Shown here: positions 22,479 to 49,771 of the stretch, one piece after another
How positions within the stretch are numbered: the stretch's first letter is position 1
How the letters are laid out: every line of letters begins with the position of its first letter
Source of the DNA: Achromobacter insuavis
Lineage (GTDB): Bacteria; Pseudomonadota; Gammaproteobacteria; Burkholderiales; Burkholderiaceae_B
NCBI RefSeq assembly: GCF_902859645.1
Contig: NZ_CADIJR010000019.1
Location: forward strand, 1 to 64,000
Length of the DNA stretch: 64,000 nucleotides
Reading direction: 5' to 3'
Made by a program: the position numbers and the translations under genes
The notes under the pieces: model-generated
Databases searched by the model: none
What the model was told of the DNA's origin: nothing
The model's input: only the letters and a program-made list of their open reading frames with translations

Positions 22479-23495
22479 TTACGGCATCGCCGCCGCGGCC
22501 GGCGCGTGCTGGAAGGTGAAGCTGTCGGCGTAGACGTGATCGAGGCTGGCCCCGCGCCCCGCCAGCAGCGCGGTCGCCTCGCTGATCATCGCCGGCGCGC
22601 CGCACAGGTAGATGGCGTGCTCGGACAGGTCGCCGTGGTCCGCCAGCACCGCCTGTTGCACATGGCCGCGCCGCCCCTGCCAATCGGCGCCGGCGCGCGA
22701 CAGCACCGGCACGAAATTGAACTCGTAGAGGCGCCCGGCCCAGCCCGCGATCTGGTCGCGCAGATACAGGTCGGCCTCGGTCCGCATGCCCCAGTAGAGC
22801 GTCACTGGCGGGCAATCGTCGCTGTCCAGCAGCGATTCCAGGATGGCCTTGATCGGCGCGATGCCGGTGCCGGTCGCCATCATGATCATCGGCCGCCAAT
22901 CTTCCTCGTGGTAGCTGAACACCCCCAGCGGCGCCTCGATCTCGAGCGCCGCGCCCGGCCGCGCCTGGCCCAGCCACTGGTCGGTGTAGCGGCCGCCCGG
23001 AATGCGGCGCACGTGGAAATCCACCAGGTTGCCGGCGGGCGCCGAGGCCATCGAAAAACTGCGGGTGGCGCCGTCCGGCAGCACCACGTTCATGTACTGC
23101 CCGGGCGCGTAGTCCAGCGGCGCATCCGGCGGCAGCGCCAGCGTCAGGTGGATGACGTCGTCGCACAGCGCCGCGATGCGGTGCACGGTGGCATCCAGCC
23201 GGCGCGGCTCGGCGAATTGGCGCCGGTTGGCGACGCTGATGCACAGGTCGCCGCGGGGCCGCGCCTGACAGGCCAGGGCATAGCCCTGGGCCGCCTCTTC
23301 CGGCGTCAGCGCCATCGGGAACTCCTCGTAATCGACCGCCCCTTCGGCCAGCTTGATGCGGCAGGTGCCGCAGCCGCCGAAGGTGCATTCATGCGGCAGC
23401 CGGACCGCGGCGCGCTCGGCCGCCGCCAGCACGGATTCGCCGGGCTCGGCCTCGAAGGTCTGGCCGGTCTCGAGCAGATGAATGCGATGTGCCAT
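22479..23495 (-). CDS. NAD(P)H oxidoreductase with N-terminal 2Fe-2S and FAD domains
   Basis: A 338-residue class IB-type oxygenase reductase. The N-terminal plant-type ferredoxin domain has Cys37-x4-Cys42-x2-Cys45 and Cys76. The FAD domain has GQYMNV and RSFSMAS (145-151). The NAD domain has GTGIAPIK (209-216) and CGAPAMI (298-304). The same architecture supplies electrons in phenol hydroxylase (DmpP) and related oxygenases. Here no Rieske or toluene-monooxygenase component is encoded next door. The likely acceptors are the two ferredoxins and the HDO diiron protein encoded in the same GTATAC-linked block (inference). Last gene of an operon with the GlcG and aldehyde dehydrogenase genes. Confidence 0.88.
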   Translation of the reverse strand: MAHRIHLLETGQTFEAEPGESVLAAAERAAVRLPHECTFGGCGTCRIKLAEGAVDYEEFPMALTPEEAAQGYALACQARPRGDLCISVANRRQFAEPRRLDATVHRIAALCDDVIHLTLALPPDAPLDYAPGQYMNVVLPDGATRSFSMASAPAGNLVDFHVRRIPGGRYTDQWLGQARPGAALEIEAPLGVFSYHEEDWRPMIMMATGTGIAPIKAILESLLDSDDCPPVTLYWGMRTEADLYLRDQIAGWAGRLYEFNFVPVLSRAGADWQGRRGHVQQAVLADHGDLSEHAIYLCGAPAMISEATALLAGRGASLDHVYADSFTFQHAPAAAAMP

Positions 23496-23517
23496 GGAAT
23501 TCCCCGCCTGCCGGCGC

Positions 23518-23997
23518 TTATTTCTTGATGTCCGCCTGCACCAGCACCTTCAGGCCGCGCGGCTCCAGCATTTCGGCCAGCGCCGTCAGCGCCGCCAGGC
23601 CCGCCTGGGTGTCCTGTTCGCCGTTGCCGCCGCTCAGGCCCACGCCGCCAATGACCTCGTCGTTGACCACGATGGGAAAGCCGCCCACGAACGCCGCGAA
23701 CTTGCCCTCGAAGCTCCACTGGATGCCGAAGGCCTCGTTGCCGGGCAGCGCCGGCCCGTTTGGCGGCGTGGTGAACAGGTGCGTCGAACGCTTGTGGCCG
23801 GCGGCGGTGAAGGCCTTGTTCCAGGCGATCTGCGGGCCGGTGATGCGGGCGCCGTCCATGCGCTCCAGCGCGATCGGGTAGCCGCCGTCATCGACGATGC
23901 ACACCGATTCCAGCACGCCGATCTGTTCCGATCGGGCGATGGCCGCGCGCACCATGGCGCGCGCTTCTTCCAGTTCCAGGCGATAGATCTGCTTCAT
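23518..23997 (-). CDS. GlcG/HbpS family heme-binding-type protein (DUF336)
   Basis: A 159-residue cytoplasmic protein with the GlcG/HbpS fold. Motifs are SVCIVDDGGYPIALERMDGA, AWNKAFTAAG, FPIVVNDEVIGGVGLSGGN and TQAGLAAL. Family members often accompany catabolic operons; some bind heme or cobalamin derivatives. There is no signal peptide. It sits between the aldehyde dehydrogenase (20 bp) and the reductase (22 bp). Its role here is unknown. Confidence 0.87.
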   Translation of the reverse strand: MKQIYRLELEEARAMVRAAIARSEQIGVLESVCIVDDGGYPIALERMDGARITGPQIAWNKAFTAAGHKRSTHLFTTPPNGPALPGNEAFGIQWSFEGKFAAFVGGFPIVVNDEVIGGVGLSGGNGEQDTQAGLAALTALAEMLEPRGLKVLVQADIKK

Positions 23998-24017
23998 GTC
24001 TGTTCTCCAAAGGGCCG

Positions 24018-25478
24018 TCAGCCGGCGCGGTAGACGGTCTTGATCTGGGTGTAGAACTCCAGCCCGACCCGGCCCGATTCGCGGAAGGTCGAGGTGCTGG
24101 AGCTTTTCAGGCCGCCGAACGGCGCGTTGATGAGATTGCCGGTGGTGGTGCGGTTGATCTTGACGGTGCCGGCCTGGATGTCGCGCGCGAAGCGATGGGC
24201 GTAGCGCGCGTCGCGGGTGGCGATGGCGGCGGCCAGGCCGTACTCGGTGTCGTTGGCGCAGGCGATGGCCTCGTCGTAGCCGTCCACCGCGATCAGCGCC
24301 AGCACCGGGCCGAAGATTTCCTCGCGCGCGATGCGCATCTGCTGCGTCACGTCGGTGAACAGGGCCGGGGTCACGTAATAGCCGCGCTCGAAGCCCGGAC
24401 CGTCCAGGCGCTCGCCGCCGATCAGATGGGTGGCTTCCTGCTTGCCCAGCGCGATGTAGCTCAGCACCGTGTCGAGCTGCTTGCGGGTGGCCAGCGGCCC
24501 CAGGTCGAAATTGCCCTCCAGGCCGTTGCCGATGGTCAGCTTGGCCATGCGCGCCAGCAGCTTCTCGGTGAACGCCGGCAGCACCTTGCGATCGACCAGC
24601 AGCCGGCTGGTGCCGGTGCAGGCCTGGCCGCTGAGCGAGAACCCGCCCTTGACCGCCAGGTCCACCGCGCGATCCAGGTCGGCGTCGGCCAGCACGATCA
24701 GCGGGTTCTTGCCGCCCAGCTCCATCTGCGTGCGCGTGGTCAGGCCGGCGCCGCGGTGGATCTGCTCGCCGGCGGAGGTCGAGCCGGTGAAGGAAATGGC
24801 GCGCACCGCCGGCGCGGTGGTGATGGCCTGCCCCACCTTCGAGGCCGGCCCCGTCACGAAATTCAGCACGCCCGGCGGCAACCCCGCCTCGATCAGCGCC
24901 TGCGCCAGGCGGTAGCCGGACAGCGGCGCGTCCGACGACGGCTTGAACACCACGGTATTGCCGGTGATCAGCGCCGGCGCGATCTTGCGCGCCGGAATCG
25001 AGATCGGGAAGTTCCACGGCGAAATCACCGTCACCACGCCCAGCGGCTCGCGCTGGCTGTAGACCACCATGTCCGGATCGTCGTTGACGAAGGTCTCGCC
25101 GGTGAACGACTGCCCTTCCACCGCATAGAACCGCAGGGTCTGGGCCGAGCGCAGCACTTCGTCGCGGGCCAGCGCCAGGCCCTTGCCTTCCTCGCGGGTC
25201 AGTTCGCGCGCCACGCTGTCGGCGCGGTCCTCCAGCAGTTGGGCAGCGCGGAACAGGATGGCGGCGCGCTTGGAGATCGGCGTGTCGCGCCAGGCGGGAA
25301 AGGCGGCGGCGGCCGCCGCCACGGCGCGGGCGCCATCGGTGGCGTCCGATTGCTGGAACCGCCCCACCACGTCGGCGCTGTCGGCCGGGTTCAGGTTCGG
25401 CGCCGTCGCGCCCGAGGCGCAGGCGACCCATTCGCCGCCGATGTGATTCAGAAATGCCTGCTGCGAAAGCTCGTCCAC
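24018..25478 (-). CDS. Aldehyde dehydrogenase, alpha-ketoglutaric semialdehyde type
   Basis: A 486-residue NAD(P)-dependent aldehyde dehydrogenase with Asn156 (SPWNFP), Glu253 (MELGGKNP) and catalytic Cys287 (GQACTGT). I chose the GTG start (VDELSQQAFLNHIGG) because a strong site, aaaggaagga, lies just before it; an upstream ATG would add 23 uncharacteristic residues. The C-terminal segment KINRTTTGNLINAPFGGLKS with FRESG and FYTQIKTVY resembles 2,5-dioxopentanoate dehydrogenases, which make 2-oxoglutarate. That assignment is from remembered motifs and is moderate. A GTATAC site lies 70 bp upstream. First gene of the operon with the GlcG and reductase genes. Confidence 0.87.
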   Translation of the reverse strand: MDELSQQAFLNHIGGEWVACASGATAPNLNPADSADVVGRFQQSDATDGARAVAAAAAAFPAWRDTPISKRAAILFRAAQLLEDRADSVARELTREEGKGLALARDEVLRSAQTLRFYAVEGQSFTGETFVNDDPDMVVYSQREPLGVVTVISPWNFPISIPARKIAPALITGNTVVFKPSSDAPLSGYRLAQALIEAGLPPGVLNFVTGPASKVGQAITTAPAVRAISFTGSTSAGEQIHRGAGLTTRTQMELGGKNPLIVLADADLDRAVDLAVKGGFSLSGQACTGTSRLLVDRKVLPAFTEKLLARMAKLTIGNGLEGNFDLGPLATRKQLDTVLSYIALGKQEATHLIGGERLDGPGFERGYYVTPALFTDVTQQMRIAREEIFGPVLALIAVDGYDEAIACANDTEYGLAAAIATRDARYAHRFARDIQAGTVKINRTTTGNLINAPFGGLKSSSTSTFRESGRVGLEFYTQIKTVYRAG

Positions 25479-25540
25479 GGAAGTCCTTCCTTTGCCGGGC
25501 TGGCCGGGATGCCCGGAAATTGGCCGTCTGAGGTAATTTC

Positions 25541-25554
25541 TGAACATTGTATAC
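25541..25554 (-). promoter_or_regulatory. GTATAC operator candidate before the aldehyde dehydrogenase
   Basis: tgaacattgtatac on the plus strand, identical over all 14 bases to the sequence before the HDO gene and in the same orientation relative to the gene. It may be a GntR operator overlapping a -10 hexamer (TACAAT on the minus strand). Confidence 0.6.
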
Positions 25555-25595
25555 TTTAATCTAAATGGTTCGATCCGCGTAAACCCGAACGGGCG

Positions 25596-27128
25596 TCAAT
25601 GCCAGATCAGCACGGCGCAGATCGTCGACACGAACAGCGCCAGCAGCACGGGCAGCAGCAGCGCCCGCACCAGCGACAGCACGTGGACGCGCGCAAACCC
25701 CGCCACGGCGATCAATGACGACCAGGCGATCAGGGTGCCGCCGCCGGTCCACACCGCGCCCATCTGGCCCACCGCCGCCAGTGTGGCCGGGTCCACGCCC
25801 ACCACCGGCCCCAGCGCGCCCGACAGCGTGCCCGTCAGCGGCAGGCCGGCGAAACCCGAGCCGTCGATGCCGGTGATCATCCCCACCAGCAGCACGCCGA
25901 ACGCCACCAGGAAGTGGTTCTCGGGAATCAGGTGCTGGCCCGCCGAGATCACTTCGAACAGCAGCCCCGGGGCCTGCGCCTGCGGCATGCCCAGGATCTG
26001 CGCGGCGGTCTCGTTGGCGCCGACGAAGAAGAAGCCGGCGATCGGCAGCACCGAGCCCATCGCCTTGAAGGCGAACACGAAGCCGTCGGTGACGTGCTCG
26101 GGGCAGACGTCCAGCATCTTGCGCGGCCCTTCGGCGGCCAGCGTCACCAGCATCATCACCACGAACGCCACGCCGCCCACCAGGGCCGCCGCGTCGCCGC
26201 CGCGCAGCGCCGGCAGCGACGGGAACAGCCGCGGCAGCACCATCACCGCGATCACGCCCAGGAAGGCCAGCGGCGTCACCACCGCGAACACGCGCGACCA
26301 GCGCACCCGGCGCCGTTCCTCGTCGTCCAGCCCCGGCCCGCGCGGCAGCGCCGGGTTGGCGCCCATGGTGCCGCGCGCCAGCTCGGCCTTGTCGAACGAG
26401 CCGGACTGCTCGATCTCGGCCAGGCTGCCGTCCTGGGCGCGCGCCTGCCAGGCCGACAACAGGCCCGGGTCGGCCGGCACGATGTGCTTGCGCACCAGCA
26501 GGTAGGCGACGGTCAGCGCCACCGCGCCGGTGATCAGCGACAGCACCAGCGCGCGGTCCGCCACCACCGCGGCGCTGACCGCCGCGCCGGCGGCCTTGGC
26601 GCTGATGCCCGGCGCCACGCCGATCACGTAGTCGGACGACAGCGCCATGCCCTGCCCGGCGATGGCGATGGCCATGGCGCCCGCCAGCGGCGGCAGCCCG
26701 GCCGCGATGGCCGCCGGCAGCAGGATCGCGGACACCAGCGGCACCGCCGGCGTCGGCCAGAAGAACAGCGAGATCACATAGGTACAGAGGGCGATGATGA
26801 CGAACGACGAATGGCCGCCGCGCATCACTCGCCGGAACGGCTGCACCATGCGCACGTCCGCCTGCAGCGTCTTGAGCGCGTTGAGCAGGGCGGTCATGAA
26901 GGTGATGACCAGGAAAATGTTGAAAAGCTCTTTGGCGGCCACGAAGCTGGCCGAGAAGATGCCGATCAGCGCGCTGATCGGGTTGCCGGTGATGGCCAGC
27001 ACCACCAGAAAAGTGCCGATGACCGACGGCACCACCACGTTGGCCCGCAGGACCATCGTCAGGATGATGGCGGCGACGCTGGCCAGGTACATCCAGTGAG
27101 CGGCGTTGAGGACGACGTCCGATTGCAT
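25596..27128 (-). CDS. 12-TM secondary transporter, CitMHS/GntP-like (carboxylate type)
   Basis: A 510-residue polytopic membrane protein with about twelve hydrophobic segments in two halves. A central hydrophilic loop (residues ~220-280, rich in charged residues) separates them. Re-entrant-like Gly/Pro segments such as FWPTPAVPLVSAILLPAAIAAG and GIDGSGFAGLPLTGTLSG are seen. The pattern fits ion-transporter superfamily members that carry citrate, gluconate or other organic anions. A GTATAC site lies 43 bp upstream. It is probably the uptake system for the substrate of this catabolic block. Family placement is tentative. Confidence 0.75.
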   Translation of the reverse strand: MQSDVVLNAAHWMYLASVAAIILTMVLRANVVVPSVIGTFLVVLAITGNPISALIGIFSASFVAAKELFNIFLVITFMTALLNALKTLQADVRMVQPFRRVMRGGHSSFVIIALCTYVISLFFWPTPAVPLVSAILLPAAIAAGLPPLAGAMAIAIAGQGMALSSDYVIGVAPGISAKAAGAAVSAAVVADRALVLSLITGAVALTVAYLLVRKHIVPADPGLLSAWQARAQDGSLAEIEQSGSFDKAELARGTMGANPALPRGPGLDDEERRRVRWSRVFAVVTPLAFLGVIAVMVLPRLFPSLPALRGGDAAALVGGVAFVVMMLVTLAAEGPRKMLDVCPEHVTDGFVFAFKAMGSVLPIAGFFFVGANETAAQILGMPQAQAPGLLFEVISAGQHLIPENHFLVAFGVLLVGMITGIDGSGFAGLPLTGTLSGALGPVVGVDPATLAAVGQMGAVWTGGGTLIAWSSLIAVAGFARVHVLSLVRALLLPVLLALFVSTICAVLIWH

Positions 27129-27171
27129 GCGCTATTCCCCTTGTGACGTGGCTGTTGAGATCGCCACTTCG

Positions 27172-27177
27172 GTATAC
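27172..27177. promoter_or_regulatory. GTATAC operator candidate before the transporter
   Basis: cttcgGTATACtatatttcg, 43 bp upstream of the transporter start and in the divergent gap shared with the TSUP permease gene. Confidence 0.5.
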
Positions 27178-27329
27178 TATATTTCGTTATGCGCCATACC
27201 AACCGAAATATGCGCCGCCTAGGGAAACCGATAATTCTGAAATTTCCATGAATATCCCAGGAAAATCAGTGCATTAAGTTGGGGCGCAAGCCCAATCTTG
27301 GTGCACGACCGGTTTTCAGTCAGACTACC

Positions 27330-27335
27330 GTATAC
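27330..27335. promoter_or_regulatory. GTATAC operator candidate before the TSUP permease and gntR
   Basis: actaccGTATACataaaag, ending 18 bp before the ATG of the permease gene. Its position would let a bound repressor block transcription of its own operon. Confidence 0.5.
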
Positions 27336-27353
27336 ATAAAAGAGACTTCTGAC

Positions 27354-28091
27354 ATGCCCGTCGCCCTTCCCGATCTCTGGCATTACGCGGCCATGGCCGC
27401 GGTCGTCTTCGGCGCCGCGCTGGCGCAGGGCGTGGGCGGCATCGGCTTCGCCATGTTCGCCGCGCCGGTGGCGGCGCTGTGCTTCCCGCAGCTCGCCCCC
27501 GGCCCGCTGCTGACGCTGGGCGGCTTCATCTCGCTGCTGACCGCGCTGCGCGAACGCGGCGCGATCGACTGGCCGGCGGTCGGCTATGCCCTGACCGGGC
27601 GCGCCGCCGGCACCTTGATCGCCATCTACGCCATGGCGCGCTTCGCGCCGCAGGCGCTGGGCCTGCTGTTCGCCGCCATGATCCTGGCGGCGGTCGTCCT
27701 CAGCGCCGCCGGCCTGCGCTTTGCCGCCACCCCGGGCCGGGTCTCGGGCGCTGGCGTGGCCTCGGGCATCATGGGCACCATGACCTCGGTCGGCGCCCCG
27801 CCGATCGCCCTGGTGCTGCAGCACGCCGAGCCGCCGCGGCTGCGCGCCACGCTGGGCATGGTGCTGTTCCTGGGGTCGATCTTCTCGCTGGCGATGCTGG
27901 CGCTGGCCGACCGCTACACCGGTTACCACGCCGCGCTGGCGCTCAGCCTGGCGCCGTTCCTGCTGGCCGGCTTCGCCGTTTCCGGCCGGCTGCGCTCGCG
28001 GCTGCCGCCGCGCGCGGTGCGCGCCGTGCTGCTGGTCGCCTGCGCCCTCGGCGCGCTGGGCGTGATCGCCAAGGCCCTGTGGGCCGGCTGA
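27354..28091 (+). CDS. TSUP family (TauE/SafE) membrane permease
   Basis: A 245-residue membrane protein with about eight segments. The family-typical N-terminal FGAALAQGVGGIGFAMFAAP and mid-protein GVASGIMGTMTSVGAPPIAL are repeat halves. I used the ATG preceded by aaaagaga, not the earlier in-frame codon inside the promoter. TSUP proteins export or import small organic or sulfur anions. It forms an operon with the GntR regulator (41 bp) and likely moves a substrate or product of this block. Confidence 0.85.
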   Translation: MPVALPDLWHYAAMAAVVFGAALAQGVGGIGFAMFAAPVAALCFPQLAPGPLLTLGGFISLLTALRERGAIDWPAVGYALTGRAAGTLIAIYAMARFAPQALGLLFAAMILAAVVLSAAGLRFAATPGRVSGAGVASGIMGTMTSVGAPPIALVLQHAEPPRLRATLGMVLFLGSIFSLAMLALADRYTGYHAALALSLAPFLLAGFAVSGRLRSRLPPRAVRAVLLVACALGALGVIAKALWAG

Positions 28092-28132
28092 CGCCGCCCG
28101 CCGACGCCGTGGGCGCCCCGCCCGGTAATACA

Positions 28133-28885
28133 ATGAAGACTGTATCCATTCCGCCAGACCTGCTCGCCATGACCACTTCGCCCGTCAGCTCGCAAGCCGT
28201 AGACACGCAGCAATCTGCTCCGCTGAAGATCGGCGAGCAGCATCCGCAGTTGTTCGCGGTCATCCGCGACAAGCTGCGCGAGCGCATCCTCAGCGGCGAA
28301 TTCACGCCCGGCGACCGCCTGGTCGAAGGCCGCCTGTCGGAAGAAATGGGCGTGTCGCGCATCCCGGTGCGCGAAGCGCTGCGGGCGCTGGCCGCCGAAG
28401 GGCTGGTCACCATCGAACCGCGCCGCGGCGCGTCGGTGTCGGTGCTGTCGGACGCGGTGGCCTACGACATGGTGGAAGTGCGCGCCACGCTGGAAGGCCT
28501 GAACGCCAAGCTGGCCGCGCAGCGCCGCGACGACAAGACCGTCGAACGCCTGCAGGCGTTCCTGCGCGAAGGCACCGAGGCCGCGCGCAGCGAGCAGCTG
28601 GACAAGTTCCTGGCGCTGAATTCGCAGTTCCACGAAATGCTGGCCACCATCGGCGGCAACGTGGTGCTGACCGACCTGATGCGTTCGCTGCGCGACCGCA
28701 CCGCGCTCTTGTTCGCCCCCAGCAACATGCACCGCGCCAAGCAGAACTGGGACGAACACTCGCAGATCCTGAACGCCGTCATCGCCGGCAACGGCGACCT
28801 GGCCGCGCTGCTGGCCAGCCAGCACGTGCACAACGCCGCCAAGGCCTACACCGAGACGCGCCAGGCGCACTCGTCGGCCGCCTGA
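28133..28885 (+). CDS. GntR family transcriptional regulator, FCD (FadR-type) domain
   Basis: A 250-residue regulator. The N-terminal winged helix-turn-helix reads LRERILSGEFTPGDRLVEGRLSEEMGVSRIPVREALRAL in its core (about residues 48-86), followed by GLVTIEPRRGASV. The C-terminal FCD ligand-binding domain shows ALNSQFHEMLATIGGN with conserved Asn/His, and DEHSQILNAVIAGN. FCD domains bind metals and carboxylates. A second ATG 12 codons in is also possible. Likely controls the surrounding block through the GTATAC sites, as a repressor relieved by an organic acid (inference). Confidence 0.88.
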   Translation: MKTVSIPPDLLAMTTSPVSSQAVDTQQSAPLKIGEQHPQLFAVIRDKLRERILSGEFTPGDRLVEGRLSEEMGVSRIPVREALRALAAEGLVTIEPRRGASVSVLSDAVAYDMVEVRATLEGLNAKLAAQRRDDKTVERLQAFLREGTEAARSEQLDKFLALNSQFHEMLATIGGNVVLTDLMRSLRDRTALLFAPSNMHRAKQNWDEHSQILNAVIAGNGDLAALLASQHVHNAAKAYTETRQAHSSAA

Positions 28886-28944
28886 GCGCGGCCGCGGCCA
28901 TCAGGCGCGGCCGTCGCGGCGCCGTGACGATGACCGCGCGGCGC

Positions 28945-29289
28945 TCATGACGCGGCCGGCTGCGCCTCAGCGTCCGTCACCACGCCCTTGCCGTCGCGCA
29001 CCACCCAGGACACGGCCACGTCGCCCAGCACGAAGGTCTGGCAGGCCATGCGATAGCCGGCCTCGAAGTCTTCGGGCCGCAGGTGCTTGCGTTCCTTGGG
29101 CTTGATGGCGTCGGTGTTTTCCAGCCCCTGCTCGATGCGGCACTTGCAGGTGCCGCACAGGCCGCCGCCGCACTTGAACGGAATGCCGCCCTTTTCCTTC
29201 AGCGACACCCGCAGCAGATTGCTGTTCTCCGGGGCCTGGGCCACCTTGCCGCCATTCGATAGAAACGTGATCTTGACCATGCTGCTCAT
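28945..29289 (-). CDS. 2Fe-2S ferredoxin (copy 1)
   Basis: A 114-residue plant-type ferredoxin with Cys40-x4-Cys45-x2-Cys48 and Cys83 (KCGGGLCGTCKC, MACQT); an extra Cys50 is present. The start overlaps the stop of the 113-residue gene by four bases (ATGA), so the two are translationally coupled. It is last in the HDO operon. Likely an electron carrier between the reductase and the diiron protein. Confidence 0.9.
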   Translation of the reverse strand: MSSMVKITFLSNGGKVAQAPENSNLLRVSLKEKGGIPFKCGGGLCGTCKCRIEQGLENTDAIKPKERKHLRPEDFEAGYRMACQTFVLGDVAVSWVVRDGKGVVTDAEAQPAAS

Positions 29290-29627
29290 TGCTCCGCGGC
29301 GACGCGGTCGGGATGCCGCGTCAGGGTGGTATCGATGCTGCCGAAGCGGGTCAGGTGGATAAGCTCCTGGCGCGCGGCCTCCAGCGAACCGAAGGCCTCC
29401 AGGAACTTGGACGGCACCCGGTTCACCACATAGGGCGGCGTTTCCTCGGTGACCACCAGCCGGCTCGGTCCGCGCAGCCGCGCGATGCTGAAGACGGCGC
29501 GCAGGCGGCCATCGCAGGCGTAGTCGTAGGTCTCGACGATCTCGGCCAGCGCGTCCGCCTCGGTGCGGTACACGCCAGGCTTGGACGTCAGGATCACGAA
29601 CACGGCGTCATTCGCGTCGCGGGTCAT
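29286..29627 (-). CDS. Hypothetical 113-residue protein between two ferredoxin genes
   Basis: I do not recognise a family. It is soluble, without signal or membrane segment or cysteine pairs (one Cys at residue 38). It appears as an alpha/beta protein: DAVFVILTSKPGVYRTEADALAEIVETYDY, shown here only in part (VFVILTSKPG), then RAVFSIARLRGPSRLVVTEE and a C-terminal helix. The codon use is like its neighbours. It is tightly coupled to ferredoxin copy 1 and 42 bp from ferredoxin copy 2, so it probably acts with them, for example as a coupling or regulatory subunit of the HDO oxygenase (inference). Confidence 0.8.
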   Translation of the reverse strand: MTRDANDAVFVILTSKPGVYRTEADALAEIVETYDYACDGRLRAVFSIARLRGPSRLVVTEETPPYVVNRVPSKFLEAFGSLEAARQELIHLTRFGSIDTTLTRHPDRVAAEQ

Positions 29628-29669
29628 GCGCGGTTCCTTTGCAGATTGCGTTCGGGAAGGGCCTGGCGG

Positions 29670-30008
29670 CTAGCGCTGCTCGGCGGCGGCAACGACCTCG
29701 CGCGGCGCCGCCGCCTCGACGTCCTGCGCCAGTTCGATATCGTGGTCGAGCCACAGCTGGCAGGCCAGTCGGTAACCCGCGTCGATGCGCTCGCCCAGCT
29801 GCTTCTTTTCCTTCCAGTTCACCGGCGGCAGGTGTTCCGCCCCCGACAGCACGCGGCAGGCGCATTTGGCGCACTTGCCCATGCCGCATTCGTAACGCAG
29901 GTGCGGAAAGGGAAACTGCCGGATGCCGGCGCGCACCACCAGGTTGGCGTTGTCCGGCACCACCCCGGTATGGGTCTGGCCGTCTTTGTGGAATACGACG
30001 GTAGGCAT
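29670..30008 (-). CDS. 2Fe-2S ferredoxin (copy 2)
   Basis: A 112-residue plant-type ferredoxin with Cys41-x4-Cys46-x2-Cys49 and Cys83 (ECGMGKCAKCAC, LACQL). It is clearly diverged from copy 1, with an acidic Ala-rich tail. It follows the HDO gene by 70 bp. Two different ferredoxins in one operon suggest either two acceptors or two redox steps. Confidence 0.9.
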   Translation of the reverse strand: MPTVVFHKDGQTHTGVVPDNANLVVRAGIRQFPFPHLRYECGMGKCAKCACRVLSGAEHLPPVNWKEKKQLGERIDAGYRLACQLWLDHDIELAQDVEAAAPREVVAAAEQR

Positions 30009-30078
30009 GGATCAGGTATCCAGTGGCGCCCGCCGCGGTCCGCGCGGACGGCGCGGGCGGCGGCGGCGGGCAGGGGAC

Positions 30079-30810
30079 TCAGGCGGCCAGGCCCAGCTCG
30101 GGCAGCGCGATTTCCTGCTGCACGTAGTCGGTATAGAGCGCGGTGGTGTACAGCAGCCGCATCTGCGCGCCGATCTCGCAGATCTTCAGGCAGCGCTGCT
30201 GCAGCTCCACCGTGTTGGCGTGCTCCAGCACGATCTGGTAGCCGCGCTCGCCATGGATCTCGTCGGACACGATGTGCAGGTCGAAGAACTCGACTTCCTC
30301 ATCGGTGAAGCCATATTTCTCGCGCAGGGTCGGCGTCTGCTTGCGGTAGATCGACGGCACCTGCGATTCCAGGCCCACCACCAGGCCGGCCACGGCCACG
30401 ATCGGGTCTTCGCGCATCGCCACGGCGTAGCACCAGCTTTGCAGCGCCCGCGTCGTGGGCGACATGTTGTCCGGATTGGTGACCCGTTCGCGGGTGGTGC
30501 CGCAGGCCTCGGCGAAGCGGATCAGCAGATCGGTATGGCGGTCGCCGCCGATTTCCTCTTCATACATGTTGGCCAGCAGGAAATCCTTGGCCTCGGTGTA
30601 GGTGTCGGGCGTGCGGGCGTACAGGTAGCCCAGGTAGTCGGCGAACGGGCCGACGTAGTGGTAGTGGTTCTCGGCCCAGCGCGACAGGTGTTCGCGGCTG
30701 AGCTTGCCTTCGGCCCAGGCGATCGAAAACGGCGAGGCGTTGGCGCTCTTGCCCTTGATTGCGTTTTCCAACGCGGTACGGAATTCATCTCGGTTCATCA
30801 GTTCAGCCAT
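30079..30810 (-). CDS. Heme-oxygenase-like diiron oxidase (HDO/CADD/PqqC-like) protein
   Basis: A 243-residue, all-helical, TenA/PqqC-fold protein. Seen: the full six-residue HDO metal set with the right spacing, Glu85 and His92 (EEEIGGDRH), Glu148 (VVGLES), and His179-x3-Asp183-x2-His186 (DLHIVSDEIH). Known: this E-x6-H / E / H-x3-D-x2-H pattern binds two irons in CADD, UndA, BesC and SznF, which oxidise fatty acids or amino acids with O2. PqqC has the same fold without iron. A lysine (Lys157) lies nine residues after Glu148, near where CADD has its own lysine. First gene of an operon with two ferredoxins. The substrate is unknown; a p-aminobenzoate synthase (CADD type) is the main alternative. 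Confidence 0.85.
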   Translation of the reverse strand: MAELMNRDEFRTALENAIKGKSANASPFSIAWAEGKLSREHLSRWAENHYHYVGPFADYLGYLYARTPDTYTEAKDFLLANMYEEEIGGDRHTDLLIRFAEACGTTRERVTNPDNMSPTTRALQSWCYAVAMREDPIVAVAGLVVGLESQVPSIYRKQTPTLREKYGFTDEEVEFFDLHIVSDEIHGERGYQIVLEHANTVELQQRCLKICEIGAQMRLLYTTALYTDYVQQEIALPELGLAA

Positions 30811-30862: not shown

Positions 30863-30876
30863 TGAACATTGTATAC
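30863..30876 (-). promoter_or_regulatory. GTATAC operator candidate before the HDO operon
   Basis: tgaacattgtatac on the plus strand, 60 bp upstream of the HDO start, identical over 14 bases to the site before the aldehyde dehydrogenase operon. Confidence 0.6.
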
Positions 30877-31878: not shown

Positions 31879-33114
31879 ATGAGCGCATTCGATACGGATG
31901 GGCGCAGGCGCTTCCTGCGCCAGGCCTGTACCCTGGGCGCGACCGGCACGCTGGCCGGCCACGCCCTCACCAGCCTGGCGGCCCCCGCCACCGTCACCCT
32001 GCCGTTCGCCAATGGCGAGCGCGACCTGATCGCCTACCCCCAGAAACGCCCCCTGATCCGCCAGACCTCGCGGCCGCCGCAGCTGGAAACGCCGTTCGCG
32101 GTGTTCAACGACAGCGTGATCACGCCCAACGACGCCTTTTTCGTGCGCTACCACCTGGGCAACATCCCCACCGCTATCGATGCCACCGCCTACCGGCTGC
32201 GCATCGGCGGCTCGGTCGGCACGCCGCTGGAACTGTCGCTGGCGGACCTGAAGCAGCAATTCGGCCAGCCGGTCGAGCTGGTGGCCGTGACGCAGTGCTC
32301 CGGCAACAGCCGCGGCTTCTTCGAGCCGCGCGTGGGCGGCGGCCAGCTCGGCAACGGCGCCATGGGCAACGCCCGCTGGCTCGGCATCCCGCTCAAGCGC
32401 GTGCTGGAGAAGGCCGGCATCCAGGCCGGCGCGCGCCAGGTCACGTTCCAGGGCCTGGACCGGCCGGTGCTGCAGGGCACGCCCGCCTTCGTCAAGGCGC
32501 TGGACGCGGCCCATGCGCTGGACGGCGAGGTGATGCTGGCCTACGCCATGAACGGCGCCGACCTGCCGATGCTCAACGGCTATCCCGTGCGGCTGGTGGT
32601 GCCCGGCTATTACGGCACCTACTGGGTCAAGCACCTGGCGGACATCCAGGTGCTGGACAAGGAGTTCGACGGCTTCTGGATGCAGAAGGCCTACCGCATC
32701 CCCGACAACGACTGCGCCTGTACGCCCGCGGGCAAGGCGCCGGACAAGACCCGTCCCATCGGCCGCTACAACGTGCGCAGCTTCATCACCAGCCTGGCCG
32801 ATGGCGCCCGCGTCGCCAAGGGCGCGCGCGTGCAGGTGCGCGGCATCGCCTTCGACGGCGGCCGCGGCATCCGCGAGGTGCAGTTCTCGGCCGACGACGG
32901 CAAGACCTGGCGCGCCGCCACGCTGGGCCAGGACCTGGGACGCTATTCCTTCCGCGAATGGCATGCCGAGTTCACGCCCACCCAGGCCGGCCGCTACGCG
33001 CTCAAGGCGCGCGCCACCAACCAGGCCGGCGAGACCCAGCCGCTGGAGCCGCTGTGGAATCCGGCCGGCTACATGCGCAACGTGGTCGAAACCGTGCGCA
33101 TCGACGCCGCCTGA
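31879..33114 (+). CDS. sorA: Sulfite:cytochrome c oxidoreductase, molybdenum subunit
   Basis: A 411-residue sulfite-oxidase family enzyme. It has a Tat signal (RRRFLRQACTLGA, residues 9-21), the molybdopterin domain with the Mo-ligand Cys140 (VAVTQCSGNSRGFF) and a C-terminal Ig-like dimerisation domain (GIAFDGGRGIREVQFSADDG). It is exported folded to the periplasm, where it oxidises sulfite to sulfate and passes electrons to SorB. It would detoxify sulfite released by SsuD-type enzymes. A ribosome-binding site (aaggag) precedes the ATG. Confidence 0.92.
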   Translation: MSAFDTDGRRRFLRQACTLGATGTLAGHALTSLAAPATVTLPFANGERDLIAYPQKRPLIRQTSRPPQLETPFAVFNDSVITPNDAFFVRYHLGNIPTAIDATAYRLRIGGSVGTPLELSLADLKQQFGQPVELVAVTQCSGNSRGFFEPRVGGGQLGNGAMGNARWLGIPLKRVLEKAGIQAGARQVTFQGLDRPVLQGTPAFVKALDAAHALDGEVMLAYAMNGADLPMLNGYPVRLVVPGYYGTYWVKHLADIQVLDKEFDGFWMQKAYRIPDNDCACTPAGKAPDKTRPIGRYNVRSFITSLADGARVAKGARVQVRGIAFDGGRGIREVQFSADDGKTWRAATLGQDLGRYSFREWHAEFTPTQAGRYALKARATNQAGETQPLEPLWNPAGYMRNVVETVRIDAA

Positions 33115-35297: not shown

Positions 35298-36290
35298 TCA
35301 GAACGTGATCGTGACCAGGATCGTGTCGCTGTAGTTGCCCGGCCGCGGCGTGGTCTGCGCCGGCACGCGGCCATAGACCGTGAACTGCTGGTTGGCTCCC
35401 GTGCCCGTGCTGTTGAGCGCGGTGCCGCCGGTCACGCCATCGCCCCAGACCGTCGCGTAGTTCGAATCATGGTAGAGCTGATAGCTGACGGTATCCGCGG
35501 CGGTCGCGTGCTTCATCTTGCGCGCCAGCACGTTGCCGGCCACCGAGCCGCCGTTGAGCGCGACGGCGAAGGCATTGTTGTTGGTGCACAGCACCGTGAT
35601 CTGGGCCGTCGCCGTCACGGCCTGCTTGAGCAGCCCCTGCGGCGCGAACGCCATGTTGGTCGTATTGATGGAGCAGTTCTTCTGCACCGTCGCCTGCACC
35701 GTCAGCGGCACGTACAACGTCTGGCTGGGCGCGGCGATCGGACAATTCACCAGCAGGCTCGCCAACAGCCCCCAGGAGATGTCGACGCGTATCGTGTTGG
35801 TGTAGCTCTCGCTGTACAGCGTGTTGGCGTTGCCGACGGTCGACACGGTGGTCTGGCTGCCCGGCAATTTGGCGTAATAGGCGAACGACGTCGACGCCGA
35901 CCCTGTCGACAACACCGGCCCGGCCAGCAGCACCGAGGTCGGCGCCGAGGTGGTCGCATTGCCCCAGACCTGGCTGTGGCCGCTGTCGGTGTACAGGTTG
36001 TAGTTCATGCGATAGGCGCCCGAGCCCAGCGCCCGCGCCGCCGTCGACGGGCTGGTGGTGCCCACCCCGGCGGAAAAGCACAGACGCGCGCCAAACGCGA
36101 GCGCGGTGAAATTGCACGTCACCGCCACGGTGTTGCTGTCGGCGTAGGTATCGGTGGACAGCAGCGGATTGACCGGGCCGAAGTTGGTCGTATTGGTGGT
36201 CGCGGCGCCCAGCGAACACGAGGTCGCCTGGGCATCGGCCGACCATCCCGCCCCCAACGCCACCCCCAGCGCGAACAGGATGGACTTCAT
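35298..36290 (-). CDS. Two-domain spore coat U (SCPU) pilin/tip adhesin, CsuE-like
   Basis: A 330-residue secreted protein with a Sec signal (cleavage near SADAQATS) and two SCPU beta-sandwich domains: residues ~25-175 and ~190-330, each ending in the characteristic beta-strand (GNYSDTILVTITF). Such two-domain proteins are tip adhesins of archaic chaperone-usher (Csu) pili. The ATG overlaps the usher stop (ATGA). It is the last gene of the pilus operon. Confidence 0.87.
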   Translation of the reverse strand: MKSILFALGVALGAGWSADAQATSCSLGAATTNTTNFGPVNPLLSTDTYADSNTVAVTCNFTALAFGARLCFSAGVGTTSPSTAARALGSGAYRMNYNLYTDSGHSQVWGNATTSAPTSVLLAGPVLSTGSASTSFAYYAKLPGSQTTVSTVGNANTLYSESYTNTIRVDISWGLLASLLVNCPIAAPSQTLYVPLTVQATVQKNCSINTTNMAFAPQGLLKQAVTATAQITVLCTNNNAFAVALNGGSVAGNVLARKMKHATAADTVSYQLYHDSNYATVWGDGVTGGTALNSTGTGANQQFTVYGRVPAQTTPRPGNYSDTILVTITF

Positions 36291-38632
36291 TGGCCGGGCT
36301 CCTTCAACGGCTGGCAAGTGAACGGCCCCAGCGTGGGCAGCGGCCGCGCGGGATCGTGCCGGTACGGGAACTCCACCACGCACGACACGCCGCCGCCCTT
36401 GACCCGCAGATGGTTCTCCGCCTGCAGGTCCTCGACAAAGGCGATGCCGTCGTAGCCCACCACCGACTGCTTGCCGCTTTCGATGTGCGCGACCTGCGCG
36501 CCCACCGGCACCGCCGCGCCGTCGGGCCGCCGCAGGATGACCGAGGCCGCCGCGTAGCGCTGCAGTTCGAACTTGACCAGCACGCCGGAACCCGACTGCG
36601 GCACCGCCACCGCCTTGGTCGTCTCCAGCTTCATGTCCACCGGCAGTTCATCGGGGTCGATGGACAGCCGGTTGACCTGGTAGGAATTCAGGTCCGGCAC
36701 CAGCAGGTGGCCGGCGCTGTTGGTGCGGCCGAGCTTGCGGTTTTCGTGCAGCACCGAGACATCCGGCGTGCCGTCGGTGCTGACCAGCGCGAAGCCATCG
36801 TTGATGCGGCGCGAGGGCGTCAGCGCGCCGTCCATCAGCACCACGGCGCCGGTGGCCTGCAACGCCGCCTGGCTCTTGCCGCCGTAGTCCTGGCCCAGCG
36901 CGGTCAGCTGGCCATAGCGTCCCAGGAACTGCACCTTGCCCTGGTTGTACTGCCGGCCGCCGCTGCGGCCGTTCTCCACGCCCCAGCCCCAGCCGCCGTC
37001 ATAGTCCACATTGTGCTGCGCGCCGACGCTGTAGATGCTCTGGTCGCCCTGCCGGCCCACCGAGGCGCTGGCCTGGGTGTTGTCGCCCAGCAGGATGGAA
37101 AAGCCAAGATAGACACCGTGCGAATTGGTTTGCGAGAAATCGTTGTACGCGCTCAGGTTCATCGAAACGCGGCTGTGCAGGTTGGCGGTGTACGAGGCCG
37201 ATCCGATCCGGGCGGCGGGCGTCTGCGGCATGCGGAATCCGATATAGCTGAACGCGACGCTCTGCGAGGTCGTCAGCGGCAGCGAGAAGGTCACGCGGTC
37301 GGTCTGGCGCGGCATCGGCGCGTCCTCGCGCGAGCCCAGGTCGCCATAGTCGCCCAGCGCGCGCACGGTCTGCAGTTCGACGCTGAACGCGGGCTCGACA
37401 TACTGGTAGCCCACGCTCACCTGGCCGCCGTTGTAGTGCCCGGCGCTGCCCGACAATGCGCCGTTGACCACGCCCGCCTGGCCCAGCCGGACCAGGGCGC
37501 CGGCGCCGACGTTGTAGACGCCGGCGCTCATTTCGGAATGGCCCTCCAGCGTCAGCGCGTCGTCCAGGCCGTAACGGCCCGAGGCGGTGACGGCGGGACG
37601 CTTGTCGTAGTCGAAGGAGCGCACGCTGAACTGGCGCCGCGCCACGCCCATCTCGATGGAATAGCTGGAAAGCCCGGCCGCCAGCATGCGCGTGTCGATG
37701 TAGAGCGGCACCGAAGTGCTGACGCTGCGCCCCAGCGCGTCGCGCGTGACCAGCGTGGCCTGGCCCGAGCCGGTGATGCCCGGGATCTGGTTGACCACGA
37801 ACGGCCCGGCCGGCACATTGCCCGAATACTGCTGCACGCCGTTGACGTACAGCGACACCGACGACGGCACCACCGACGACGCGCTCAGCGACGATACCGG
37901 AAACGTCACCAGGTCCGGACGCAACGCGAAATTTCTCCCCCACTGGATGCCGGCCACCCGCACCGAGCGCGACCAGTTCAGGGACGAGGTGATGGTGTCG
38001 CCGATCCGCAGCGTGCGCAGCGTGTCCTGGTTGGAATGGGTCCAGTAGGTGTCGTAGCGCACATAGCGGTCGGCGCGTCCGCCCAGATAGGTGGTGCCGG
38101 TATTGCTGAGCGTGCCATGGCTGTCGAAATAGCGCTGTTCGCTGTACAGCGACACGGTGCTGTAGGCATCGGTCTGCGCATAGGCCTCGTAGTTCACCAG
38201 CAGGCCGCGCCCCGCGGTCGCGCGCGGCGTCTGCGGCAGGCCGCGGGTATCCACCTGGAACGGTTGGCGCAGCCCGTCGGGGACCACCAGGTTCACCGAT
38301 TGCATGGCGGCGTTGTAGGTGTAGCGCAGCCCGGCGACGTCATCGAGCCGGATCTCGCTGTCGCGCGCCGCGCCCATCTTGCTCACGTCCACGCCGACCG
38401 ACCCCAGCGCGCCGGGGCTGGCCGACAGGCGGCCCTGTGCGTCCCGGAAACGCAACAGCTGCGTCGTGTTCACGCCGTTGATACTCACCTCCAAATAGAC
38501 ATCGCGTTCGGCGATATCGCCGAACGACACCAGTTGGATGGGCAAATCCGCCGCCACCGCCGACGCTCCGAACAGCACGAGCGCGAAGCGGCATGCGCAG
38601 CGCCCGCATGCACGGATAGCGCGTACTGCCAT
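36287..38632 (-). CDS. Archaic (Csu-type) fimbrial outer membrane usher
   Basis: A 781-residue usher. The start (MAVRAIRAC) has the ribosome-binding site agaagg; an ATG 17 codons upstream would add a Pro/Arg-rich tail. Signal peptide residues ~1-29, N-terminal chaperone-binding domain, then a beta-barrel with the plug region (SVSLYVNGVQQYSGNVPAG, PFVVNQIPGITGSGQATLV), and C-terminal domains ending in CxxC-less VVEFPYRHDPARPLP. It secretes and assembles SCPU pilins. It lies 55 bp after the chaperone gene. Confidence 0.9.
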   Translation of the reverse strand: MAVRAIRACGRCACRFALVLFGASAVAADLPIQLVSFGDIAERDVYLEVSINGVNTTQLLRFRDAQGRLSASPGALGSVGVDVSKMGAARDSEIRLDDVAGLRYTYNAAMQSVNLVVPDGLRQPFQVDTRGLPQTPRATAGRGLLVNYEAYAQTDAYSTVSLYSEQRYFDSHGTLSNTGTTYLGGRADRYVRYDTYWTHSNQDTLRTLRIGDTITSSLNWSRSVRVAGIQWGRNFALRPDLVTFPVSSLSASSVVPSSVSLYVNGVQQYSGNVPAGPFVVNQIPGITGSGQATLVTRDALGRSVSTSVPLYIDTRMLAAGLSSYSIEMGVARRQFSVRSFDYDKRPAVTASGRYGLDDALTLEGHSEMSAGVYNVGAGALVRLGQAGVVNGALSGSAGHYNGGQVSVGYQYVEPAFSVELQTVRALGDYGDLGSREDAPMPRQTDRVTFSLPLTTSQSVAFSYIGFRMPQTPAARIGSASYTANLHSRVSMNLSAYNDFSQTNSHGVYLGFSILLGDNTQASASVGRQGDQSIYSVGAQHNVDYDGGWGWGVENGRSGGRQYNQGKVQFLGRYGQLTALGQDYGGKSQAALQATGAVVLMDGALTPSRRINDGFALVSTDGTPDVSVLHENRKLGRTNSAGHLLVPDLNSYQVNRLSIDPDELPVDMKLETTKAVAVPQSGSGVLVKFELQRYAAASVILRRPDGAAVPVGAQVAHIESGKQSVVGYDGIAFVEDLQAENHLRVKGGGVSCVVEFPYRHDPARPLPTLGPFTCQPLKEPGQ

Positions 38633-38687
38633 GGGCTGCCTTCTCTTACCCCGAGGCCGCCGACAAGGCGGCGCGGGACGCAATCAG

Positions 38688-39422
38688 TCAGTCGGTTCGC
38701 GGTGTCACGGTGACGGGATTGCCGTTCACCAGCGCTTTGATCCTTACCTGTCCGGGCGCGGCCTGCCTGGCGGGAAAGCGCCACTCGCGCTGACGCTGCG
38801 CCAGGGCATAACCCAGCAGCCCGTCGACCTTGCCCAGCTGCGCATCGGCGCCGCCCACGACCTGCAGGGCCGCCACCTGCGCATAGCGGGTGCCGGTATT
38901 GGCGAGTCGCAATACCCATTCCTTGCCGTCGCGCGCCAGGTGCCAGGCCAGCTCCGGCGTCGGTTCGGGCGTGGCGCCGGCCACGAAGACCGGCACCGAA
39001 TAGCGCATGCGCAACACCACGCCATTGACCAGCGGCGTGGACGGATCGGGAATCTCGTCGATCACCAGCCGGTAGCTCTGCTCCAGCGGCGCCACGTCCT
39101 TGCCTGCCCGCACCAGCCGCACCAATTGCTCGCCTTTGGGCGGCACCTGGATAATGGGCGGACTGGCCTGGATCGCCTCGGTCGGCGCCAGCACGTCATC
39201 GCCCTGGGCCTGGTCCCAGGCGTAGACGCGCACCTGGCCGTAAATGGGCGTGATGCCTGGATTGCGCAGCATGATGCCGGTGGCGCTCTGCTGCGGCGGC
39301 AGGTCCACCAGCACGGGCGATATCTGCAGCGTCGCCGCCCGCGCCGGCACGGCCAGGACGCTCCAGGCGAACGCCGCACCGACCAGTATGCGGAAAAGAC
39401 GGCCCGCGAATGGGCGGGCCAC
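38688..39422 (-). CDS. Pilus assembly periplasmic chaperone, CsuC-like
   Basis: A 244-residue PapD-like chaperone with a Sec signal and two Ig domains. Motifs are LQISPVLVDLPPQQSATGI, the G1-region QASPPIIQVPPKGEQLVRLV, and YRLVIDEIP. It starts with GTG, whose first base is shared with the last base pair of the upstream pilin stop, so the genes are coupled. It donates strands to SCPU subunits. Confidence 0.9.
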   Translation of the reverse strand: MARPFAGRLFRILVGAAFAWSVLAVPARAATLQISPVLVDLPPQQSATGIMLRNPGITPIYGQVRVYAWDQAQGDDVLAPTEAIQASPPIIQVPPKGEQLVRLVRAGKDVAPLEQSYRLVIDEIPDPSTPLVNGVVLRMRYSVPVFVAGATPEPTPELAWHLARDGKEWVLRLANTGTRYAQVAALQVVGGADAQLGKVDGLLGYALAQRQREWRFPARQAAPGQVRIKALVNGNPVTVTPRTD

Positions 39423-39937
39423 TAGAAATACACCGTCGCGGTCACGGTCGAGGAATACGTATCGGGCGCCGGCGTGCTCTGCACGGGCACCGTGCCGTTC
39501 ACGGTCAGCGCCTGCGATGAGCCATTGCCGACGCCGCCGACGCGATCGGTGGAGCCGGTATCGCCCCAGACCACCGTCTGGTTGGGCGCCGGCTGGTACA
39601 ACTGGTATTGCACCGTGCTGGCGGTATTGCCCGTCCCGGTCCCGTTCATATAACGGGTGGCGAAGGTGGATCCCGAACCGCTGCCGGCGCTCAGGCCGAC
39701 GGTATAGGGCGTGGTATTGGTGCAGGTCACGTTGACCGTGGTATTGCCCGTCACCGCGGTGGTGAGCAGGCCGTGACTGCCGAAGCTCAGGTTATTCGCG
39801 GCAATGGTGCAATTGGCCGTAATGGTCAGCGTCACCGTCATGTTGGCCGTGGTCTGGGCCAACGCCGCCTGGGGCAGGGCGCCGGCCGCCGCCAGTGTCA
39901 AAGTCAGAGTCGTCGCGCACAAGGACAAGCGTTTCAT
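39422..39937 (-). CDS. Major SCPU pilin subunit, CsuA/B-like
   Basis: A 171-residue secreted protein with a Sec signal (cleavage after QAALA, residue 27). One SCPU domain follows, with a disulfide pair (NCTIAANNLSFGSHG, VTCTNTTPYTVGLSAG) and the C-terminal strand DTYSSTVTATVYF. Unusually Thr/Asn/Gly-rich. First gene of the four-gene pilus operon, so it is likely the most expressed subunit. Confidence 0.9.
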   Translation of the reverse strand: MKRLSLCATTLTLTLAAAGALPQAALAQTTANMTVTLTITANCTIAANNLSFGSHGLLTTAVTGNTTVNVTCTNTTPYTVGLSAGSGSGSTFATRYMNGTGTGNTASTVQYQLYQPAPNQTVVWGDTGSTDRVGGVGNGSSQALTVNGTVPVQSTPAPDTYSSTVTATVYF

Positions 39938-44880: not shown

Positions 44881-44908
44881 GGGCGTGCTCCCGTCATCGT
44901 CGATGCGC

Positions 44909-46438: not shown

Positions 46439-46467
46439 TTCTTATTCTCCAGGACGGATGTTCGGTG

Positions 46468-47874: not shown

Positions 47875-47939
47875 GCGTTGTCTCCTTGCGGGCGCCGCGC
47901 CGCGACGCCCGGTTCTTGGCGGTGCGCGCCGGCCGCGGC

Positions 47940-49631: not shown

Positions 49632-49685
49632 GATCGACGCCGCGGCGCGATGCGCGGCCTGTTGGCGGAATCATAGGATGCCTAT

Positions 49686-49701
49686 GCTTGTATATACAAG
49701 C
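49686..49701. promoter_or_regulatory. HutC operator upstream of hutU
   Basis: A perfect 16-bp palindrome, gcttgtatatacaagc, 55 bp before hutU and after hutD. It closely matches the known HutC recognition pattern CTTGTATGTACAAG from Pseudomonas. It should mediate urocanate-inducible repression of hutU-permease-hutH-hutI. Confidence 0.88.
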
Positions 49702-49771
49702 TGATTGGACCAGGTTCCTGATCAGGGATTTCCCGTACGACGCCGCGCTCGGCGGGCGTCGCAAGGCGGCA

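Follow-up and report, generated by a model that had tools for sequence, protein, structure and literature searches.

We analyzed a 64,000-nucleotide stretch of DNA from Achromobacter insuavis (contig NZ_CADIJR010000019.1, positions 1 to 64,000; referred to here as the window) and focused on a block of ten genes at positions 22479..30810 that includes the gene for a heme-oxygenase-like diiron oxidase (HDO). An earlier reading of this DNA, made from the letters without database searches (the sequence-only reading), had proposed the ten genes, and all ten open reading frames (ORFs) are present at these positions. One minus-strand group consists of the genes for the HDO (30079..30810, 243 residues), a 2Fe-2S ferredoxin, Fdx1 (29670..30008, 112 residues), an orphan protein of 113 residues that we call U113 (29286..29627), and a second 2Fe-2S ferredoxin, Fdx2 (28945..29289, 114 residues). 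The other minus-strand group encodes a 510-residue membrane permease (25596..27128), an aldehyde dehydrogenase (ALDH; 24018..25478, 486 residues from its likely GTG start), an HbpS/DUF336 protein (23518..24003), and a BenC/MmoC-type reductase (22479..23495). Two plus-strand genes, for a TSUP (TauE/SafE) permease (27354..28091) and an FCD-type GntR regulator (28133..28885), separate these groups in the window. Hence, the block is not a single operon, and what stands of the ten-gene block as first proposed is one functional unit, which emerged from the comparison of genomes. The ALDH ORF opens at 25547; since many homologues align from residue 24, the GTG at 25478 is probably the start codon. 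The TSUP ORF opens at 27279 (TTG), and the ATG at 27354 is probably its start.

The HDO scores 134.1 bits against PF14518 (Haem_oxygenas_2; E value, 6e-39), well over the cut-off of 28.9, and carries all six diiron ligands that had been pointed out in it (E85, H92, E148, H179, D183, and H186), giving the three histidines and three carboxylates typical of the superfamily at the sequence level. We take the metal-binding role of these residues from the sequence-only reading and from the CADD numbering. The six ligand segments align with those of solved 4-aminobenzoate synthases, and in an alignment of 28 HDO sequences (the window and 27 other loci, 4 of them from Achromobacter), the ligands are invariant, as are 153 of the 243 columns. 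The closest solved sequences are 4-aminobenzoate synthases (6e-18) and PqqC-type proteins (3e-11). The 4-aminobenzoate synthases consume residues of their own, Tyr27 and Lys152 in CADD and Tyr25 and Lys159 in NePabS (PMC11965152). At the corresponding positions, our HDO has Ser29 and Gln158, invariant in 28/28 sequences, and it scores only 100.1 bits against the CADD model TIGR04305 (cut-off, 200) and 52.9 bits against the PqqC model TIGR02111 (cut-off, 240). These replacements and low scores rule out a CADD/PabS-type synthase or PqqC as the identity of the HDO, and the grouping that could have undone the sequence-only reading did not appear. Among five more distant homologues that we aligned, three (L076, L077, and L078; L numbers denote loci and G numbers genomes) retain both the tyrosine and the lysine, and two (L086 and L115) retain neither. 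The latter two (L086:9513-10199 and L115:8472-9194; 33% and 28% identity) have similar ligand segments in other gene settings, one of them adjoining what by eye are tripartite-receptor- and MFS-like genes.

Orthologs of the HDO form a tight group, with 85 to 100% identity in a search of the family (next best, 29%) and 82 to 100% in a search of the order (next best, 33%); across 369 genomes of the class, no ortholog besides the window's own was found, the best other match having 31% identity. The protein is strongly conserved. Compared with locus L037, it has a protein identity of 0.92 though 0.66 of fourfold sites have changed; the reductase reaches 59%. At each of the six loci compared, the HDO was the most conserved of the five block proteins measured. 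At L079 (Cupriavidus metallidurans CH34) and L058, fourfold changes are likewise fewest in the HDO gene (0.24 and 0.23; other genes, 0.25 to 0.46 and 0.32 to 0.36), so its conservation may not reflect constraint on the protein alone.

The redox proteins predicted earlier were borne out by Pfam. Fdx1 (PF00111, 1.6e-9; cysteines 41, 46, 49, 51, and 83), Fdx2 (PF00111, 2.1e-12; cysteines 40, 45, 48, 50, and 83), and the N terminus of the reductase carry 2Fe-2S domains, and the reductase continues with FAD (PF00970) and NAD (PF00175) domains; its best NCBIfam model is BenC, at a score under the cut-off. The alignment of Fdx1 has 24 rows, of which one (L047) is divergent at its end. U113 is an orphan, as had been suspected: it has no convincing match in Pfam, NCBIfam, or PDB sequences, its PDB profile matches are weak and implausible, and it matches no Pfam effector family. 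A scan of a genome collection with U113, of a kind that picks up only close relatives, returned 25 loci, all from Achromobacter, the best being Achromobacter dolens at 98%. From its place in the cluster, we regard U113 as a candidate effector or coupling protein.

The remaining genes suggest uptake and further oxidation of a compound. The regulator has both GntR (PF00392, 3.6e-21) and FCD (PF07729, 1.2e-25) domains, TSUP matches PF01925 (2.2e-18), ALDH matches PF00171 (4.3e-164), and the HbpS protein matches PF03928 (1.9e-31; 109.2 bits against a cut-off of 25), all in agreement with the identities first assigned. For the permease, the 12 membrane segments of the proposed carboxylate-type transporter were recovered as hydrophobic segments in a simple Kyte-Doolittle scan, and the transporter class was not, since no convincing match was obtained in Pfam, NCBIfam, or PDB and the PDB profile matches were weak and implausible. 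The proposed end point of the pathway, 2-oxoglutarate, did not hold up either: the ALDH scores 542.6 bits against the alpha-ketoglutarate semialdehyde dehydrogenase model NF042993, below its cut-off of 770, and the solved sequences closest to its L037 ortholog are betaine aldehyde dehydrogenases. HbpS is a candidate partner for handling the product or an aldehyde. Genes for DUF336 proteins accompany catabolic pathways, including some that form aldehydes, and EfgA, a member of this family, binds formaldehyde (PMC8153426). Thus, the pairing of HbpS with ALDH fits an aldehyde intermediate.

Comparison of the gene orders at 25 Achromobacter loci and 31 loci outside the genus, all chosen for holding the HDO, revealed two arrangements. 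We called genes adjacent when they lie on the same strand with a gap of at most 350 bases. In Achromobacter, the HDO gene directly precedes Fdx1 in 25/25 loci, followed by U113 and Fdx2, and the pairs permease-ALDH, ALDH-HbpS, and HbpS-reductase are each adjacent in the 24/24 loci that hold them, the other locus (L073) being a cut contig. Outside Achromobacter, the HDO gene instead directly precedes ALDH in 23 of the 25 loci holding both, ALDH-HbpS and HbpS-reductase are adjacent in 25/25 each, and HDO and Fdx1 are adjacent on one strand in only 3/28. Wherever U113 is present outside Achromobacter, it lies between the two ferredoxins (Fdx1-U113, 26/26; U113-Fdx2, 25/25). Gene presence at the 31 outside loci is 30 for HbpS (the remaining locus is a cut contig), 28 each for Fdx1 and GntR, 27 for Fdx2, 26 for U113, 25 each for permease, ALDH, and reductase, 18 for TSUP, 17 for an OCD-like gene, and 13 for a GGT-like gene. 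A reductase with NAD, flavin, and 2Fe-2S domains is thus encoded with the HDO at 25/31 loci outside Achromobacter and at 24/25 within it. TSUP, found in only 18/31 loci, is therefore accessory. In the record of Caballeronia sp. SBC2, the same neighbors of the HDO gene are annotated under generic names.

The genes also travel together across genomes, the outcome that the sequence-only reading had staked itself on. Named records outside Achromobacter with an HDO ortholog are replicons of Cupriavidus (4) and Caballeronia (2), at 89 to 93% identity. Among 268 genomes of the family, the HDO ortholog occurs in 76 (not counting G060, which has only a 29% homologue) and U113 in 76: 75 genomes have both, one has each alone, and 191 have neither. 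Outside the window's genus, the corresponding numbers are 33, 1 and 1, and 190. The genome with U113 alone (G179) is 72% complete, and its contig (L113) starts within ALDH, where HDO would come next. In a set of 399 genomes from the order, 10 have an HDO ortholog and 9 have U113. The permease (E ≤ 1e-40) is present in 74/76 HDO genomes and in 0/192 other family genomes. The ferredoxin-U113 module need not be linked to the HDO gene, as it is still present about 0.5 Mb or more away in G083 and about 64 kb away in G197. We had considered a third such case, G129, and dropped it without counting it: its HDO contig ends after HbpS and another contig, carrying the ferredoxin module, begins with the reductase, which is probably an assembly break between HbpS and the reductase. 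In G083, the permease gene beside HDO (L040) was matched in two overlapping frames and may be broken or contain a sequencing slip; this genome carries a permease paralog elsewhere.

A common sequence motif precedes these genes. The 64-kb window contains five GTATAC sequences, four of which, given the proposed ALDH and TSUP starts, fall in intergenic gaps of the block: upstream of ALDH (25549..25554, intergenic if ALDH starts at 25478), upstream of the permease (27172..27177), upstream of TSUP-GntR (27330..27335, intergenic if TSUP starts at 27354), and upstream of HDO (30871..30876). We counted GTATAC within 200 bp upstream of genes, dropping those with less than 100 bases of upstream sequence and noting that divergent genes can share a site. 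The motif precedes HDO in 30/32 sources (1.06 expected from resampled sequence), the permease in 24/26, TSUP in 15/19, Fdx1 in 20/32, GntR in 14/30, and ALDH in 9/26. It is infrequent before OCD (4/19), HbpS (2/31), and GGT (1/13) and absent before the reductase (0/27), U113 (0/30), and Fdx2 (0/31), which are operon internal in most loci; background windows contain it in 76/4317 cases. GTATAC also precedes the unlinked ferredoxin module at L111, and L110 has a near match only. At three loci away from the HDO cluster (L122, L123, and L124), second permease copies (64 to 67%) are paired with a second GntR gene (56 to 59%), and GTATAC sits between the duplicated genes. Because the motif recurs upstream across genera, before an unlinked module, and between the duplicated GntR and permease genes, it is likely the operator of this GntR family. 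The duplicated pairs have no consistent metabolic context; two of the loci (L122 and L124) also hold what by eye are acyl-CoA ligase- and branched-chain ABC receptor-like genes. In the window's own genome, the HDO site is the only exact match to an extended palindrome. A search with this pattern, allowing one mismatch, gave four sites against two for a reversed control; one of the other three overlaps the HDO site and two lie elsewhere, and no wider regulon was found in this genome.

Loci in other genera hold additional enzymes. L037 encodes a GGT-like hydrolase (G_glu_transpept, 2.6e-100) and an OCD-like protein (1.4e-42) that matches structure 3hdj, a "probable ornithine cyclodeaminase" (2e-104) presumably from Bordetella pertussis. 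An isochorismatase-like hydrolase is present in 5/31 loci beside ABC transporter-like genes (by eye), an alpha/beta hydrolase is present at L080, a carboxylesterase-like ORF is present at L083 (by eye), and tripartite-receptor-like ORFs were also seen by eye. GGT-like and OCD-like genes are found at none of the 25 Achromobacter loci, and L037 queries against the window's genome returned only paralogs, at up to 42% and up to 34% identity. Since the window's genome is without these orthologs, the accessory genes feed or extend the core and are not part of it. They hint that the precursor contains nitrogen or is an amide. A second type of OCD-family gene, 28 to 30% identical to the usual one, is found close to the HDO cluster at L036:1926-2996 and L050:12718-13839, two loci without the usual OCD-like gene.

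Collectively, the block genes behave as one functional unit in many Burkholderiales and are probably also regulated as one. The loci share their gene content, the six conserved ligands, and an upstream motif, the genes co-occur almost without exception, and they are exchanged between operons. We consider it reasonably probable that this unit is a GntR-controlled catabolic uptake and oxidation system around the HDO, in which electrons arrive via the reductase and ferredoxins and the product passes to ALDH. A catabolic role, as had been proposed, is likely in view of the importer, FCD-GntR regulator, ALDH, HbpS, and accessory hydrolases. We infer the substrate, the reaction, and the electron flow from gene content. 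In our model, the regulator would bind the GTATAC palindromes before the transcription units and be released by binding of the substrate or a metabolite. The orphan permease would import a small polar, probably carboxylated compound, and in other genera, the GGT-like, esterase, and isochorismatase-like hydrolases may free the same core substrate from larger precursors. Electrons would pass from NAD(P)H through the FAD/2Fe-2S reductase to Fdx1, Fdx2, or both and on to the diiron center of the HDO, a route suggested by analogy with MboB, the flavin- and Fe2S2-containing reductase that is the dedicated redox partner of the HDO MboA (PMC13185094). The diiron center would activate O2 and cleave or oxygenate the substrate to an aldehyde; HbpS may hold or process this labile product, and ALDH would oxidize it. 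U113, with its constant position between the two ferredoxins, probably serves to couple or gate the contact between HDO and ferredoxin.

Several observations weigh against this model. Two genomes (G238 and G807) have the HDO without U113, and both keep the two ferredoxins. The permease is missing from two HDO genomes (G129 and G264) and is only 41% identical in a third (G131). Near the HDO, ALDH is missing at 6/31 outside loci (L046, L049, L083, L085, L087, and L114) and the reductase at 6/31 (L044, L046, L083, L085, L087, and L114). The contig ends near the cluster at L044, L087, and L116, and at L046 and L049 one flank is shorter than 10 kb; a contig end accounts only for L087 (both genes) and, for the reductase, L044. 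Because most absences are not due to contig ends, ALDH and the reductase may be replaceable or encoded elsewhere. All co-occurrence and locus counts are phylogenetically dependent, as the loci are related by descent. With respect to the motif, the window's three other GTATAC sites fail the extended palindrome, and the 7-base form GGTATAC is not unusually frequent (2 found; 12/100 shuffles had at least 2). The HDOs studied so far require no protein effector, according to section 5 of a review of the superfamily (PMC13108848). Lastly, the gene clues at the loci single out no one compound as the substrate.

A different wiring of the same genes, in which the BenC-like reductase feeds the HDO directly, as MboB does for MboA, with the ferredoxin-U113 module taking part in a different redox step of the same pathway, such as re-reducing another enzyme or delivery to HbpS, is in our view unlikely but deserves serious attention. 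The reductase carries its own 2Fe-2S domain, the available excerpt of PMC13185094 presents MboB as MboA's redox partner and describes no separate ferredoxin, and in most non-Achromobacter loci, HDO, ALDH, HbpS, and reductase sit next to one another, as HDO and Fdx1 seldom do. Against it, four loci (L046, L083, L085, and L114) have HDO, HbpS, and ferredoxins but no reductase nearby, and the HDO adjoins the ferredoxins in every Achromobacter locus. We think it quite unlikely that the cluster is biosynthetic or detoxifying, with the HDO making a specialized metabolite or removing a toxic one and the permease and TSUP serving export or exchange. The abstract and section 4 of PMC13108848 describe characterized HDOs as natural product biosynthesis enzymes, and TSUP and an efflux-type MFS neighbor at L080 could export, but no peptide synthetase or ligase is among the recurrent neighbors that were identified (not every ORF was scanned). 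What recurs instead is FCD-GntR, ALDH, HbpS, hydrolases, and genes that by eye encode ABC or tripartite receptors. A chance juxtaposition of two unrelated systems, as the plus-strand genes splitting the two minus-strand groups in the window might suggest, is very improbable, being contradicted by operon exchange, co-occurrence, and the shared motif. Hardly any probability remains for a CADD/PabS-type p-aminobenzoate synthase or a metal-free PqqC: such proteins are the closest solved sequences, but the self-sacrificed residues are replaced throughout and both model scores fall far short.

The uptake and oxidation system that we favor resembles several known systems in part. Multicomponent soluble diiron monooxygenases, such as soluble methane monooxygenase (sMMO) and phenol hydroxylase, work in a way that the block recalls, with an MmoC/BenC-type reductase and possibly a small coupling protein. 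The block differs in that its oxidase is of the HDO type and not ferritin-like, and in the lack of any Pfam effector family match for U113. CADD and NePabS share the ligand pattern with the HDO, which differs from them in the residues and scores given above and in its gene setting. UndA, BesC, HrmI, and SznF belong to the same superfamily and activate O2 on acids or amino acids, but they are biosynthetic and need no protein effector (PMC13108848, section 5). That 2026 review counts about a dozen functionally validated HDOs and presents the superfamily in terms of natural product and cofactor biosynthesis; according to the legend to its Figure 2, the second step of MboA requires MboB. The block also resembles the mangotoxin acetylenase pair MboA-MboB, in which the gene for a dedicated NAD(P)H/flavin/Fe2S2 reductase lies beside that for the HDO (PMC13185094). 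Publication of this pair makes outdated the earlier claim that characterized HDOs act without a dedicated encoded electron chain, and because one such reductase is already on record, redox pairing of an HDO is not new. MboAB is biosynthetic and acts on a peptide substrate, and the same excerpt describes no separate ferredoxin, a word found there once, in a reference; the block differs in its two ferredoxins, orphan protein, importer, ALDH, and GntR regulon. The HDO superfamily and its redox pairing are thus known, and the two ferredoxins, U113, and the apparently catabolic regulon are new. A literature search restricted to open-license PMC papers found no title or abstract opening that describes this cluster and no operon matching homarine catabolism, which we had considered as a template. 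More tentatively, the system might represent, among heme-oxygenase-like oxidases, the first equivalent of the multicomponent soluble diiron monooxygenases. It would then have a reductase of its own, two ferredoxins with distinct roles, and, in U113, a small coupling protein of a new family that is almost always required, and it would have arisen to serve a catabolic pathway and an imported substrate for which no degradation route is described; we would not yet bet on this bolder version. A regulon that, across Burkholderiales, ties an HDO to a reductase, two ferredoxins, a small orphan protein, and an orphan importer would be a way to test how HDOs obtain electrons in the cell, and it would open a catabolic branch of the superfamily. 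The block also gives context to two protein groups, U113 and the 510-residue permease, that are without annotation in the libraries used, and the candidate operator offers a route to the inducer.

The surroundings of the block include other genes. An Rfam scan of the window gave no match. Beside the HDO, at window positions 31879-33114, is a molybdopterin oxidoreductase with a Mo-co dimerization domain (Pfam), which adjoins the HDO in many Achromobacter loci and otherwise was seen once, farther off (L081), among the other loci checked. A fimbrial usher (Pfam Usher) lies at 35298-39937, with probable chaperone and pilin genes by eye. Histidine utilization genes (amidohydrolase, aromatic amino acid lyase, and urocanase by Pfam) occupy 43663-51114, and a GntR-like gene was noted by eye near them.

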